Shown here one piece after another: positions 1,035 through 15,342 of a stretch of DNA of 37,352 bases (the stretch's first letter is position 1; each line of letters starts with the position of its first letter). The position numbers and the translations under genes are program-made. The notes under the pieces were generated by a model, which saw only the letters and a list, made by a program, of their open reading frames with translations, did no database searches and was not told the DNA's origin. Origin of the DNA: Mariprofundus sp. (GTDB lineage Bacteria; Pseudomonadota; Zetaproteobacteria; Mariprofundales; Mariprofundaceae); contig JAUZQK010000089.1 of NCBI GenBank assembly GCA_030951025.1, positions 1-37,352 of the forward strand. Direction: 5' to 3'.

Positions 1035-1254
1035 AGGGCAATCGCATTAAAATATCCTGAGTTTTAGTATGTTTTCAGCTATTTTAATTTCGTCATCCCC
1101 GAATGGTTGTGTCGGGGATCCACCTATAACATATGGATTTCCCTCAGGGGGCTCTCTTTGCCTTCAGCATTCAGCTTATCCGATGAACCCTTCGAAAATG
1201 ACGAAACTTTTAATACATTGCCAAATCATAACCCGATTTTTAATGCGATTGCCC
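1035..1254. mobile_element. Fold-back/MITE-like element with 18-bp terminal inverted repeats
   Basis: The 18-mer AGGGCAATCGCATTAAAA at 1035-1052 recurs exactly as its reverse complement at 1237-1254. Inside it, TTTCGTCATCCCCGAA at 1088-1103 is matched imperfectly by the inverted 1191-1206. A third nested hairpin, the REP-like 1091-1122, lies near the left arm. No open frame inside resembles a transposase and no clear target duplication flanks the ends. The 981-1292 gap therefore holds a non-coding fold-back element rather than a gene. Whether it moves, or serves as a transcript-end structure for its neighbours, cannot be decided from one copy. Confidence 0.55.
1091..1122. repeat. REP-like palindrome
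   Basis: CGTCATCCCCGA is followed after nine bases by TCGGGGATCCA. The two arms pair as CCCCGA/TCGGGG with partial outer pairing. The sequence matches the widespread GGATCCCCG...CGGGGATGACG style of intergenic palindrome. It sits inside the larger fold-back element at 1035-1254. Confidence 0.6.
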
Positions 1255-2095: not shown

Positions 2096-3079
2096 ATGTT
2101 TGTGCGTCACTGTATTTATAGCGTTGTTGTATTGTTTGTTAGCGCCTGTGCCAGCCATGCGCCGATAGATTCAACGGATATTAAGCTGACAGCCTTTTGG
2201 GTGAATCAGTCTGCAGGGCAAATCGAAAACCTAAACAACCATCTGGCCAGCCGTTTTGCTCCCATCATTGTGCCGGATCAGCCGCAGGTCAGTTATAACC
2301 GAGTCGGTAAACCTGTTGCCGCATACAATGAGGATGGCGAAGAGCAGATTTCTGTATCGGCTGAACAGCCCGTGTTTTATTTCCAACAGCGCGATTTCAG
2401 TACGGATCAGGCCAGTTATACGAATCTGATTTACCGCATGCATTTTGAGGGCACGCCATTTTATCACCTTACATCGGGTGATAATGTCGGCCTGTTTGTG
2501 ATTGTTACTATCAATGCCCAAAAGCATCCTGTGTTGATTACCACAGTACATACCTGCGGCTGTTATCTGGCTTTTACACCAACCCAATATATGCCCGCCG
2601 ATGCTTTCCCCAAGCATTGGGATGAGACCGGCCAACAGGTTTATGGCCAAAGCTTACCAAGTTTGCTGCAATGGTCTGGCAATGATGCCCGGCCAATCAT
2701 TATGTTGGAAGATGGCACCCATCGTGTACGTGATATTCAGATTATCAGTACAGCTCATGCAAAATCGGCAATGCATCAGGCTGATACAGCAATCGAAGCA
2801 ATGGCTGCATTGAAGCGCTTGCCGCTTGGCTCTGGAAATACTTCGTTTTTTATCACCGAGGGTGATGACAAGGGTTATGTTAAAGGCTCGAATAAACCAT
2901 GGGAATTTTTATTCATGAGTTGGTGGGCGCTGGATATCAATATCGGTGTGGATAAAGACTATGGCGATGCATCAAAAACAGGTGTGTTGTTTTATACTGA
3001 CTTGAATCCAAAAAACCGTGAAGCCAGTGATATGTGGCCATTTGCCCGATTTTTGCATTATTGGGGCTGGCGCTTGTAA
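2096..3079 (+). CDS. Hypothetical lipoprotein, 327 aa
   Basis: The N-terminus is a lipoprotein signal with lipobox FVSAC (Cys at about residue 18), followed by a Ser/Asp-rich linker. The mature part is mixed alpha/beta in composition with many aromatics and an unusual HTCGCY motif in the middle. A Trp-rich C-terminal third ends in YWGWRL. GGGGGAG lies about six bases before the ATG. No known family is recognised. It is a single gene transcribed away from the lipoprotein at 1293-1916 and convergent with uspA, with 11 bases between the stops. The 179-bp gap before it shows AT-rich sequence but no convincing promoter. Confidence 0.7.
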   Translation: MFVRHCIYSVVVLFVSACASHAPIDSTDIKLTAFWVNQSAGQIENLNNHLASRFAPIIVPDQPQVSYNRVGKPVAAYNEDGEEQISVSAEQPVFYFQQRDFSTDQASYTNLIYRMHFEGTPFYHLTSGDNVGLFVIVTINAQKHPVLITTVHTCGCYLAFTPTQYMPADAFPKHWDETGQQVYGQSLPSLLQWSGNDARPIIMLEDGTHRVRDIQIISTAHAKSAMHQADTAIEAMAALKRLPLGSGNTSFFITEGDDKGYVKGSNKPWEFLFMSWWALDINIGVDKDYGDASKTGVLFYTDLNPKNREASDMWPFARFLHYWGWRL

Positions 3080-10402: not shown

Positions 10403-11416
10403 TCAATCCAGGCGCTGTATAATGATTTGCATTAAGGCTGCAATGTGAGTGTCGGCATCATTTAAAGCAGGGATATAACGATACTGCTGACCGCCTGCAT
10501 CAAGAAAATAGTCGCGGTTTTCCATGCCAACCTCTTCGATGGTTTCCAGACAATCGGCCGAAAAACCCGGGCAGATCACATCCACAGACTCCACCCCCTG
10601 CTTGCCCCATTCTTTCAGTGTTGCATCGGTATAAGGCTGTAACCACGGCTCTCTGCCAAAACGTGATTGAAAAGCGACATGGGCTTGCTCATCATTGAGT
10701 TCGAGGCGCTGGCTGAGTAACCGGGCTGTTTTGCGACAATGGCAGGGGTAAGGGTCACCCGATTTGAAATAACGCTCTGGAATACCGTGGTAGCTCATCA
10801 GCAAACGCTGGCTACGCCCGTGTTGCTGCCAGTATTGTTCTACACTTTGAGCCAGCGCATCGATGTAGGCGGGATGATCATAATAGGCATCGATCAGGTG
10901 TAATTCAGGAATGCGTCGCCATGATTTCAGCACCTTGGCAACGGCATCAAAGGTTGAGGCTGTCGTGGTGGCAGAGTATTGGGGGTAGAGTGGCAGAATT
11001 ATAATTTTACGACAATTCTTTGTGCGCAAAGCTTCAAGGCCTGCTTCGATGGATGGGTTGCCATAACGCATGGCAAGTTCGACATGGATGTGCTCCCCCA
11101 GTTTGTCCTGCAAGGCCAGATGCAGTTTGTGACATTGTTTTTTACTGATGGCCAATAATGGCGAACCTTCATCAGTCCATACTTTGCGATAGGCAGCCGC
11201 TGATTTGGCCGGGCGAATATTGAGAATGACAATGTGTAATACCAGCCACCATAACCAGCGTGGTTGCTCCACCACACGCGGATCCCAAAGGAATTCTTTG
11301 AGATAGGTGCGCAGCGCTTTGGCTGTGGGTGCATCGGGGGTGCCGAGATTGGTTAGTAATATGCCAATGGATGCAGGCTGTTGATGATCAAAATCCGCTT
11401 TTGCACTGAAACTCAT
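10403..11416 (-). CDS. hemH: Ferrochelatase
   Basis: Ferrochelatase inserts ferrous iron into protoporphyrin IX, the last step of protohaem synthesis. The 337-residue protein has the N-terminal GILLTNLGTPDAP block and the active-site SYHGIPERYF with His210. It also has the PYPCHCRKTARLL segment, FQSRFGREPWLQP, and the CPGFSADCLETIEEVGMENR block with the acidic metal-path residues. No C-terminal membrane helix or extra cysteine cluster is present, as expected for a soluble or peripheral bacterial enzyme. GAGG lies seven bases before the ATG. It is the last gene of the lpoA-nadB-acyP-hemH group, 74 bases after acyP. Confidence 0.97.
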   Translation of the reverse strand: MSFSAKADFDHQQPASIGILLTNLGTPDAPTAKALRTYLKEFLWDPRVVEQPRWLWWLVLHIVILNIRPAKSAAAYRKVWTDEGSPLLAISKKQCHKLHLALQDKLGEHIHVELAMRYGNPSIEAGLEALRTKNCRKIIILPLYPQYSATTTASTFDAVAKVLKSWRRIPELHLIDAYYDHPAYIDALAQSVEQYWQQHGRSQRLLMSYHGIPERYFKSGDPYPCHCRKTARLLSQRLELNDEQAHVAFQSRFGREPWLQPYTDATLKEWGKQGVESVDVICPGFSADCLETIEEVGMENRDYFLDAGGQQYRYIPALNDADTHIAALMQIIIQRLD

Positions 11417-11490: not shown

Positions 11491-11766
11491 TCAACGTATC
11501 TCAAAGCTTTGCGCCAGTTCAGAACAATCACCGGTTGAATATGAAATGGCTGTAACCTCGGCTGCGGGTGGCCCGTGCGCAAGCCAGTTTTGCATGCTTT
11601 GCAATGGCAGTGTATCACCCGATAAACAAGTCTCGACACTGCCGTCGGGCAAGTTTCTGACCCAGCCATGCAGACCTAATTCGTTTGCCTTGAGGTGGGT
11701 ATAATAACGGAAACCAACAGCTTGAACGCGGCCTTGTATATGAGCCAGAATACATTGCTGTGGCAT
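11491..11766 (-). CDS. acyP: Acylphosphatase
   Basis: This 91-residue enzyme hydrolyses acyl phosphates. The signature loop reads GRVQAVGFRYYT (usual form GxVQGVGFR), with the catalytic arginine kept and Ala replacing the first loop glycine. The second signature GWVRNLPDGSVE carries the catalytic Asn. Length is normal for the family. The start codon overlaps the nadB stop as TAATG, a sign of translational coupling. Its metabolic role is usually minor, and the pairing with nadB is not functionally explained. Confidence 0.94.
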   Translation of the reverse strand: MPQQCILAHIQGRVQAVGFRYYTHLKANELGLHGWVRNLPDGSVETCLSGDTLPLQSMQNWLAHGPPAAEVTAISYSTGDCSELAQSFEIR

Positions 11767-13382
11767 TATGAACCCGGCCTGATAATGGTATCTGCCACCT
11801 TGGCAGAGCGCTGCGGATAATCGGTCGAATAATGCAGACCACGCGATTCCTTGCGTTGTTGTGCGCTTTGCACAATCAAATCGGCCATCAGGGCAATGTT
11901 ACGTAATTCCAGCAGATCCTGACTGAGCGGGTGTTTCCAATAATATGATGCGATTTCTTCCTGCACGATACGCAAGCGGCGTCGAGCCCGCCGTAAACGC
12001 TCATCTGAGCGTACAATGCCAACATAGTGCGACATCGTGGCACGAATTTCATCCCAGTTCTGCTTGATTTGGATGCGTTCCGTTTCAGGCACGATACCTG
12101 AATCATCCCAGGCAGGGACATGGCATGGCGCAGGGATTGGCTGTTTGAGTACCTCAGTGGCACAATAATCGGCCATCACGAGACACTCCAGCAATGAGTT
12201 GCTGGCCAGCCGGTTGGCTCCATGCAGCCCGGTACAGGCGGTTTCACCGATGGCGTATAAGCCTTCAAGATCGGTTTTTCCATGCACATCGGTCTGGATG
12301 CCACCGCAGCTATAATGTGCTGCCGGCACAACCGGAATGGGTTGCTGCATGATATCCAGCCCCAAATCCAACAGGCGCGAACATATATTGGGGAAATGAT
12401 CATCGATCAGTGTTTTAGCCATACTGCGCGCATCGAGATACATGCAGTCCACACCCTGCTTTTTCATTTCATGATCAATGGCACGCGCGACAATGTCACG
12501 TGCAGCCAGCTCACCACGTTGATCATAATCAAATAGAAAACGTCGCCCTTGAGCATCAACGATATGCGCACCTTCACCGCGCATGGCTTCAGAAATCAAC
12601 ATATTCGAGCCCTGGCGGTGAAATAAGCAGGTCGGATGAAACTGAATAAACTCCAGATTCATGACACTGCATCCAGCTCGCCAGGCCATGGCGATACCGT
12701 CACCTGTGGCAGCATGCGGATTGGAGGTGTAGAGATAGACTTTGCCGATACCGCCGGTGGCCAGAATCGTTTGCCGGGCTGCGATGCTCAGTACCTCGCC
12801 GTGGGGATTGAGCACATAAGCACCCAGGCAGCGATTGTGTTGATCCAGTTTTGTCGTAATCAGATCAATCGCCGTGTGCTGTTCCAAACGGGTAATATTG
12901 GCATGCGGTGCGACTTGCGATAACAGAGCCTCACCAATGGCGCGACCAGTAGCATCCTGTACATGAGCAACACGCCTGCTGCTATGCCCCCCCTCTTTGG
13001 TGAGGTGTAGACTGCCATCTGCTTCATCAAAGCGGGTGCCGAGAGCAATCAACTCATCAATCATATCGCTGCTATGCTTGATTGTGGTGCGCACGACATC
13101 TTCATGGCACAGACCCACACCGGCAGCTAGCGTATCCTGCACATGCGATTCGATCGAATCCTTATCTGAAACCACGCCGGCAATGCCACCTTGTGCATTC
13201 CATGTGCTCGAATCCTGAAAACGGCCTTTATTGACCAGTATAACCGATCCATGTTGAGCCAATCGGCTGGCAGCCAGTAGCCCTGCCGCACCGCTGCCAA
13301 TAATCAGATAATCACATTGCAGTTGCCGTTTTGAGAGGGGGTCAGGCGCATCAACTTGCGATAATTGCGTGTCCGATAACAA
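11766..13382 (-). CDS. nadB: L-aspartate oxidase
   Basis: NadB oxidises aspartate to iminoaspartate for NAD synthesis. The FAD-binding motif DYLIIGSGAAGLLAASRLA, the TWNAQGGIAGV block, the HSSRRVAHVQDATGR active-site region and the MRGEGAHIVDAQGRRF segment are all present. A C-terminal helical domain typical of the succinate dehydrogenase/fumarate reductase flavoprotein family follows. I choose a TTG start at 13382, two codons past the lpoA stop, because the next ATG upstream (13472) would overlap lpoA by 86 bases. Ribosome-site evidence for TTG is weak, so the start is uncertain. The quinolinate partner nadA is not in this window. Confidence 0.95.
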   Translation of the reverse strand: MLSDTQLSQVDAPDPLSKRQLQCDYLIIGSGAAGLLAASRLAQHGSVILVNKGRFQDSSTWNAQGGIAGVVSDKDSIESHVQDTLAAGVGLCHEDVVRTTIKHSSDMIDELIALGTRFDEADGSLHLTKEGGHSSRRVAHVQDATGRAIGEALLSQVAPHANITRLEQHTAIDLITTKLDQHNRCLGAYVLNPHGEVLSIAARQTILATGGIGKVYLYTSNPHAATGDGIAMAWRAGCSVMNLEFIQFHPTCLFHRQGSNMLISEAMRGEGAHIVDAQGRRFLFDYDQRGELAARDIVARAIDHEMKKQGVDCMYLDARSMAKTLIDDHFPNICSRLLDLGLDIMQQPIPVVPAAHYSCGGIQTDVHGKTDLEGLYAIGETACTGLHGANRLASNSLLECLVMADYCATEVLKQPIPAPCHVPAWDDSGIVPETERIQIKQNWDEIRATMSHYVGIVRSDERLRRARRRLRIVQEEIASYYWKHPLSQDLLELRNIALMADLIVQSAQQRKESRGLHYSTDYPQRSAKVADTIIRPGS

Positions 13383-13386
13383 GGCT

Positions 13387-15342
13387 TTATCCGGCCGGGA
13401 CAATTTTGCCCTTTTTGATACTGAAAATATCGAGCTGCTTTTGACCCACGCCAGCGGCATCAAAACGCACATGACCAGTCATGGCCGGGAAACCGTCCTG
13501 ATCGCGTAACTCTAGCAGCAGGGCTTGTTTCTTGAGCCCCAAACGGCTGGTCATGATGGTGGCAATGCGCATGGTGTCATAAGCCAAATTCATTAGCTGG
13601 GAGGTGTTTTCATCACCCCAGACATCGCGGTATTCAAGCTTAAACTGACGTATGGCAGGGTCTTCATTGTTTGTTTGTTGCGAAATACTGGAGCCGGCAA
13701 AACGCGCCCGCGATAAATAGCGGCCACGATCATCGAGTAAATGCCCATCCTGCCAGCGGTTGCTGCCATAAAGTGGGATATGTGAAATGTCGGCGTAGGC
13801 GAGCTGACCTGCCAGTAAGGCGATTTTTTGTCCCTTTAAAGCCAGATAAATAGCATCGAAATTAACCGGCATGTGAATTTCCATATCCATATCGGGCAGG
13901 AATACATTTAAATCTTCATCCAGCTCTGAGAGTAATACATCATCATCGGTTGCGAAGCGTAATTGTCGCAGCTGATCACGAAAATCGAGTTTGCCGGGCT
14001 CAAGACTCAGGGTTTCCAGCACTTCACCGCCGAGCGCTTCAAATGAAGCTGTAAACATAGCCGCTTCTTTTTGACTTTCACCCTCTGTTGTAATCACCAC
14101 CATGCGTTTAGCCTGATGATTCCAGGCATACAAAGCCATCACATCAATTTGCACCAATGGCGAGAGGGTATGTATAAACAAGGCTGGTGAACGCTGCGCC
14201 AAATGTGTGCGTCCGGTCAGGCTGATGACTGGAATAGCAGGCTTGAGATAGGGTATGATGGCTTCGGTTGCATCGGCCAATAAGGGGCCGACAATAATAT
14301 TAACCGATTCATTGGCCAGCTGGCGATAAGCCTTGATTGCGCCGGCTGGCTGTGAAGCCGTATCTTCTATGCGCAAGGTAATATATTTATCGAATGCCAG
14401 GGCAGCCAGAGATAGGCGAATGCCACGCAAGGCCTGTTGACCATAACGGGCATAACGACCCGTTAAGGGTAACATCACCCCAATGGTGGCGGCACTGATT
14501 TTGCCACTCGCCCACGCTTGTAGTTGTTCGTTTTCATGGCTCTGAGGCATTAGCGTGGATAATAATGCGGCGATATCGGCGACACCGGCGACATCGCCGT
14601 TCATCAAATGGGCTCGTCCGGCGTAGAGGGCAAAGAGAGGTAACAGCTCAGATGATAATGAGCCATTTGTCATATGCTGTTTGATGCTGGTCATGGAGGC
14701 GCGACGGGCAGCCATGCGTAACCAGCTATCGCGTCCTGCGGTATCAATTTGTGCGGCAGCCAGTAACCAGGCAATGGCGGTGCTTTCTTCAGCATTTTGC
14801 AGCAATGCAGGGCCGGTATCGAACACCTCATCGACCAGTTCATGCGTTAAACGCGGATGCTGTAGGGCAAGCGTTAAATGCTCTAGCGCCCGATTGCCAT
14901 CATCCTGCTGTAACCACCAGCGAGCCAACCAGAGGTGGGCATAAGGGATCAAAGCATGCTCTTGATGCATCTGCATGACCTTCAGCATGGTGTCACGAGC
15001 TTTTGGCAGACCATGTTCCAGCATCAGTTGAGCGCGGCGAAAGGCGGCTTCCTGGCGGATCAAACTGACATCACCCTGCATCAATGTCTCAAGCTGTTGA
15101 ATCATTGTATTGAGATCAGCACCAGCTTGGGCTTGTTGCATCAAGGCTTGAATTTCAGCCGCACTTTGTGGTGCGGCAACCATATGAAAAGTCGAACCAG
15201 AGATGTTTTGGGCCGCTGATGAGCTGGTCTGGCTGGGTGTTTTTGGCTGGCAGGCGCTGAGTAAAAGCAAGGCGCTGGCCGCAGCCAATAGCATGATAGG
15301 CATTGCAGCCGGCAAGGTAGGAAGATAACGTGTCCACAACAT
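13387..15342 (-). CDS. lpoA: LppC/LpoA-family lipoprotein, penicillin-binding-protein activator
   Basis: The 651-residue precursor has a lipoprotein signal with lipobox LLSAC (Cys at about residue 31). A TPR-like helical region (about 60-280) follows, then a periplasmic binding-protein type 1 domain beginning at GVMLPLTGRYARYGQQAL (about 300 to the end). This is the layout of E. coli LpoA, the outer-membrane lipoprotein that activates PBP1A for peptidoglycan synthesis. Its divergence from rsmI is the same as in E. coli. Internal ATGs 13 and 16 codons in (at 15303 and 15294) would still leave a full signal peptide and avoid the start-codon overlap with rsmI. None has a good ribosome site. Confidence 0.9.
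   Translation of the reverse strand: MLWTRYLPTLPAAMPIMLLAAASALLLLSACQPKTPSQTSSSAAQNISGSTFHMVAAPQSAAEIQALMQQAQAGADLNTMIQQLETLMQGDVSLIRQEAAFRRAQLMLEHGLPKARDTMLKVMQMHQEHALIPYAHLWLARWWLQQDDGNRALEHLTLALQHPRLTHELVDEVFDTGPALLQNAEESTAIAWLLAAAQIDTAGRDSWLRMAARRASMTSIKQHMTNGSLSSELLPLFALYAGRAHLMNGDVAGVADIAALLSTLMPQSHENEQLQAWASGKISAATIGVMLPLTGRYARYGQQALRGIRLSLAALAFDKYITLRIEDTASQPAGAIKAYRQLANESVNIIVGPLLADATEAIIPYLKPAIPVISLTGRTHLAQRSPALFIHTLSPLVQIDVMALYAWNHQAKRMVVITTEGESQKEAAMFTASFEALGGEVLETLSLEPGKLDFRDQLRQLRFATDDDVLLSELDEDLNVFLPDMDMEIHMPVNFDAIYLALKGQKIALLAGQLAYADISHIPLYGSNRWQDGHLLDDRGRYLSRARFAGSSISQQTNNEDPAIRQFKLEYRDVWGDENTSQLMNLAYDTMRIATIMTSRLGLKKQALLLELRDQDGFPAMTGHVRFDAAGVGQKQLDIFSIKKGKIVPAG

Follow-up and report, generated by a model that had tools for sequence, protein, structure and literature searches.

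Correia elements of Neisseria are short repeats that have no coding content and are bounded by terminal inverted repeats. The element described here is like them in these respects; the ends differ. Bacterial MITEs are short, non-autonomous and multi-copy, with inverted ends, as is the present element (PMC10969869); the term 'ISAs1' is absent from the main text of that review. The dRS3/NIME repeats of Neisseria allow a further comparison, as the dRS3 pattern, ATTCCC(N8)GGGAAT (PMC3898611, in excerpt), resembles the inner hairpin of our element, a likeness of pattern alone. The ends themselves are those of insertion sequences of the ISAs1 family (NF033564; PF13808 with PF01609), which carry identical 19-bp ends and, like the MITEs, a 10-bp target duplication, exact in four of the seven stretches of insertion-sequence size with both flanks. 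Unlike these insertion sequences the MITE has no transposase gene, and only the ends are in common with those compared.

Word searches of the literature, which covered titles and the beginnings of abstracts in part, returned no ISAs1 MITE with these ends. ISPmar4 is cited as an ISAs1 element (PMC3281130, PMC4133298), and no ISAs1 MITE appears in the sections of those papers that were examined. One Anabaena genome has an ISAs1 element as well as MITEs, and its authors report no similarity of the MITEs to the inverted repeats of the insertion sequences in that genome (PMC3542288). A letter search located CAGGGCAATCGCA in one paper. Oligonucleotides in a paper on the capsule locus of Porphyromonas gingivalis start with CAGGGCAATCGCATT, which equals the ends of our element over their first 15 bases; they probably represent the 77-bp inverted repeat region described there (PMC3969353). 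The text of a paper on MITEs of P. gingivalis (PMC4596501) does not mention ISAs1, and the end core is absent from it.

The element studied lies in the window, by which we mean the whole 37,352-nucleotide stretch of Mariprofundus DNA that was analysed. At 223 bp it is below the size of a transposase gene, and its parts are as follows.

1034-1256, no strand: whole MITE, 223 bp when the variable base bordering either end is counted in (C and A)
1035-1052, forward: left terminal inverted repeat, AGGGCAATCGCATTAAAA, also at the ends of ISAs1-family insertion sequences
1053-1089, forward: left subterminal arm, resembling other copies, e.g. C46 and C9 of the same genome
1088-1108, forward: inner inverted repeat, left arm; the CGTCAT...ATGACG module begins here
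1095-1119, forward: inner REP-like hairpin, ATCCCCGA - 9 nt - TCGGGGAT, 8-bp stem, with a likeness to the neisserial dRS3 pattern
1186-1206, reverse: inner inverted repeat, right arm
1207-1237, forward: right subterminal arm, resembling other copies, e.g. C48 of the same genome
1238-1255, reverse: right terminal inverted repeat, 18 bp, perfect
1257-1266, forward: right-hand target copy, TGCATGCCAT; the C46 half-element has the identical sequence on its left-hand side; no counterpart at 1024-1033

An earlier note on this DNA had described a fold-back element with perfect 18-bp terminal inverted repeats and nested repeats around a hairpin. The terminal repeats are present at 1035-1052 and 1238-1255, and the nested structure was located as an inner pair (1088-1108 with 1186-1206, 81% complementarity) and the hairpin at 1095-1119. 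The span given there, 1035-1254, was right at the left end and one base short at the right, where the arm reaches 1255. Two open reading frames of chance length (1069-1296 and 1107-1373) cross the element into its flank. When the window was scanned for the 17-mer end, three mismatches being allowed, two places were found, both exact and both the arms themselves, where 0.23 would be expected; two matches were reached in 3 of 100 shuffles. The inner hairpin motif showed no excess over chance within the window (1 match versus 1.03 expected), and only its recurrence at other loci speaks for it.

Searches with the ends and the whole element showed the element to be multi-copy. Its own genome gave five element matches, comprising one full copy and four partial ones (left parts C46 and C9, right parts C48 and C3). 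When as many as three mismatches were tolerated, the end occurred 34 times in that genome, against 5 for a reversed control pattern; 4 of the 34 were exact, 5 had one mismatch, 5 had two and 20 had three, so that many may have arisen by chance. Across the 41 genomes searched, 11 (own genome included), every one in the same genus, had an element match and 30 had none. Thus the element is not a single copy kept at this place in all relatives, the finding that the earlier note had said would speak against it. Matches reached an element end in nine of the 11 genomes; in G005 and G021, among the matches listed, only the inner hairpin stretch was covered (about query 56-88). Genome G013 had 13 matches. 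Outside the own genome, five copies, one in G009 and four in G013, matched at least 200 of the 220 bases, with identities of 71-79%, and the layout of the window element was also seen in loci L029, L030, L032 and L041 of other genomes. Loci L001-L023 overlap with L024-L063 and were excluded from the counts. In the 14 end pairs of the genus that were examined, the ends were alike, while the interior was swapped, shortened or lengthened (88 to 383 bp).

The same ends were found far more widely. An exact scan of bacterial and archaeal genomes with the 18-mer returned at least 114 stretches; in a collection of this size an 18-mer is short enough for chance matches, and so pairs of ends, not single ends, were taken as informative. 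Among the matches listed, such pairs bound eight stretches of about 1.2 kb (1190-1263 bp). Proteins from three of the eight (L081, L091 and L125) were tested, and all three were ISAs1 transposases (NF033564, E = 3.8e-119 to 7.3e-122) containing PF13808 and PF01609. In genome G007 a 379-aa frame free of stops, 82% identical to the L091 transposase, lies between one perfect end on each side, with a nearer right end having four mismatches. Further ISAs1 transposase matches were found as many fragments in G016 (72-84% identity) and as a few in G006, G014 and G021. The own assembly, which is 92% complete, gave no ISAs1 transposase by protein or by family search. Of the nine genomes with end-reaching MITE matches, only G006 and, as a broken fragment, G014 had a transposase match, and the other seven had none. 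G010 and G016, which are rich in the insertion sequence or in its ends, gave no MITE match among the first-look candidates scored (19 of 24 and 19 of 57, respectively). To look for a direct parent, the subterminal arms were compared by eye with those of six insertion sequences, and there was no likeness beyond the ends.

Target duplication was assessed on the 10 flanking bases, counted from one variable base beyond each end. Pairs were accepted with no more than three mismatches per end and no more than one in one of the ends, with the nearest partner and with both flanks present; 23 elements of up to 600 bp from the named genomes and 10 from the genus passed. At least 8 of 10 target bases agreed in 16 of the 23 named elements, 12 of them exactly (among the matches listed), and in 3 of the 10 genus elements. 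When flanks of different elements were compared as a control, none of 506 (named) or 90 (genus) combinations reached this level. Genus elements below it numbered 7 of the 10 filtered and 10 of the 14 in the wider pair set; the four of these 14 outside the filter were L042, with 8/10, and L037, L049 and L056, which were lower. L031 reached 9/10 only after a shift of one base. By record titles, exact 10-bp duplications occurred in Zetaproteobacteria, a gammaproteobacterium, Nitrospinales, Spirochaetales and Chlamydiales. The insertion-sequence-sized stretches with both flanks (n = 7) included four with an exact 10-bp duplication in the same register as the MITEs, namely L081, L112 and L136 (Paraglaciecola) and L111, and one, L175, with 8/10. 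Two of the three insertion sequences tested by protein, L091 and L125, lacked a duplication (3/10 each), as did that of G007 (1/10 or 2/10, depending on which right end is used), and these three make the explanation preferred below slightly less certain.

An empty site was sought for comparison. Downstream of the conserved bioA gene an element is present in G006, and G011 has equal surroundings without it. The few dozen bases adjoining the G006 element align poorly with G011, and its own target copies agree at about 6 of 10 by eye; the G011 site is therefore an empty-site counterpart that is not exact to the base. For L047, an 88-bp copy in G006, no empty site was obtained: a single match, in G011, ran the full length and took in the positions of the element as well, and the others are partial. 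At the window itself an empty site could not be shown, because the left flank (1034 bases) had no match longer than 42 bases, and the right flank (845 bases) no match, in the 40 other genomes. The frames at 301-816 and 705-980, the neighbouring decayed gene of the earlier note, have no Pfam match above the cut-off, and their decay is putative. Neither 301-816 nor 2096-3079 has a relative in the 22 other genomes of the genus, and the latter has no Pfam match above the cut-off. The gene names bioA, leuS, lptE and holA are readings of translations. The copies, the absence from 30 of the 41 genomes and the empty-site counterpart bear out the proposal that this is a non-autonomous transposable element.

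The element is very probably a transposase-less MITE with ISAs1-type ends, moved by ISAs1 transposase. A full-length insertion sequence would supply the DDE transposase, which would recognise the 19-bp ends and move the short element in trans, leaving a 10-bp target duplication. The interior is exchangeable, the one here carrying a REP-like (dRS3-like) unit, which is also found apart from such ends. As ISAs1 transposase was not found in the own genome, the element presumably no longer moves there. A repeat family of the lineage is in this way tied to a named transposase family, with its ends and target size defined; its copies can thus be annotated, and breakpoints that they form in assemblies and rearrangements can be recognised. 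We consider it rather unlikely that the connection reaches further, such that a nearly invariant 19-bp end, common to ISAs1 insertion sequences and to MITEs from several phyla that are otherwise dissimilar, could let a horizontally arriving ISAs1 transposase move MITEs of different parents, with these MITEs picking up and spreading REP-like hairpins.

The strong predicted fold would also suit a non-mobile element retained for its structure, either a functional RNA or a bidirectional terminator. Folded as DNA, 1035-1254 gave -38.5 kcal/mol against a mean of -19.18 (sd 2.99) for 200 dinucleotide shuffles, none of which was equally good (z = -6.46), and the element sits between two convergent reading frames with ends at 980 and 1293. 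Against this, there was no Rfam match up to E = 1, the interior differs among copies while the ends stay constant, and there are 10-bp target duplications and an empty-site counterpart. This account is thus very improbable, though terminator activity is possible as a by-product. The hairpin raises another alternative, in which the element would be a palindrome of the REP/BIME type and owe its spread to a RAYT-like (Y1) transposase, and five loci with a hairpin match (L044, L058, L061, L062 and L063) indeed had no end within the fetched stretch at up to four mismatches. However, the CGTCAT motif is missing from L047 and L059, both of which have the ends and duplications (10/10 and 9/10), and long terminal inverted repeats with target duplications, being features of DDE elements, point to that class instead. 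We give a REP/BIME origin almost no credence.

The CGTCAT-type motif was found in 7 of the 10 genus elements and in 3 of 24 named ones (among the matches listed); the latter total exceeds the 23 of the duplication count by L105, which lacks a flank. In the genus the motif occurred 8 times in 1998 bp inside elements versus 21 times in 109844 bp outside, and in the named genomes 3 times in 6198 bp versus 41 times in 755665 bp (among the matches listed), these being counts of related copies and not of independent events. We read the hairpin as cargo rather than as a defining part.

The window copy itself has no target duplication. Its flanks, GGGGAATATA and TGCATGCCAT, match at 1 of 10 bases. The right flank is identical at 10 of 10 to the left target copy of the C46 half-element, which lies directly downstream of bioA. 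A match of this kind is estimated to arise by chance about once in a million per end pair; with a few hundred pairs, the chance becomes a few in ten thousand. Comparison of the window and C46 elements over their left parts gave 7 differences in 72 bases, and they are therefore different copies. Because of the shared target sequence, the window copy is probably either a recombinant of two copies or an assembly join. The element is of an ordinary kind, its family well supported and this copy probably rearranged.

That it is an assembly join, in which case the organism may not have the 223-bp sequence in exactly this form, is a serious possibility that we place somewhat below even. The mismatched target copies, with the right one equal to the left one of C46, fit a join, and the assembly is a draft of 163 contigs in which the C46, C9, C48 and C3 pieces are each about 700 bases or less from the end of a contig. 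On the other side, the arms are perfect over 18 bp, the same layout recurs in the four loci of other genomes listed above, and true recombination between copies would appear identical. A join is compatible with the MITE/ISAs1 explanation for the family.

The C46 half-element (L213:6268-6402) stops at the hairpin loop, at element position 72, and is followed by 63 bases without a match among the fetched loci; the C48 half starts at element position 75. When gene order around bioA was compared in relatives, the two window genes 10403-11416 and 11766-13472 were found in G012 and G008 upstream of leuS, at a distance of about 6 kb; this is no more than suggestive of a link between C46 and the window. 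Both L225 (G006) and L213 (own genome) have elements directly after bioA, with unlike interiors and target flanks, and these probably represent two insertions.
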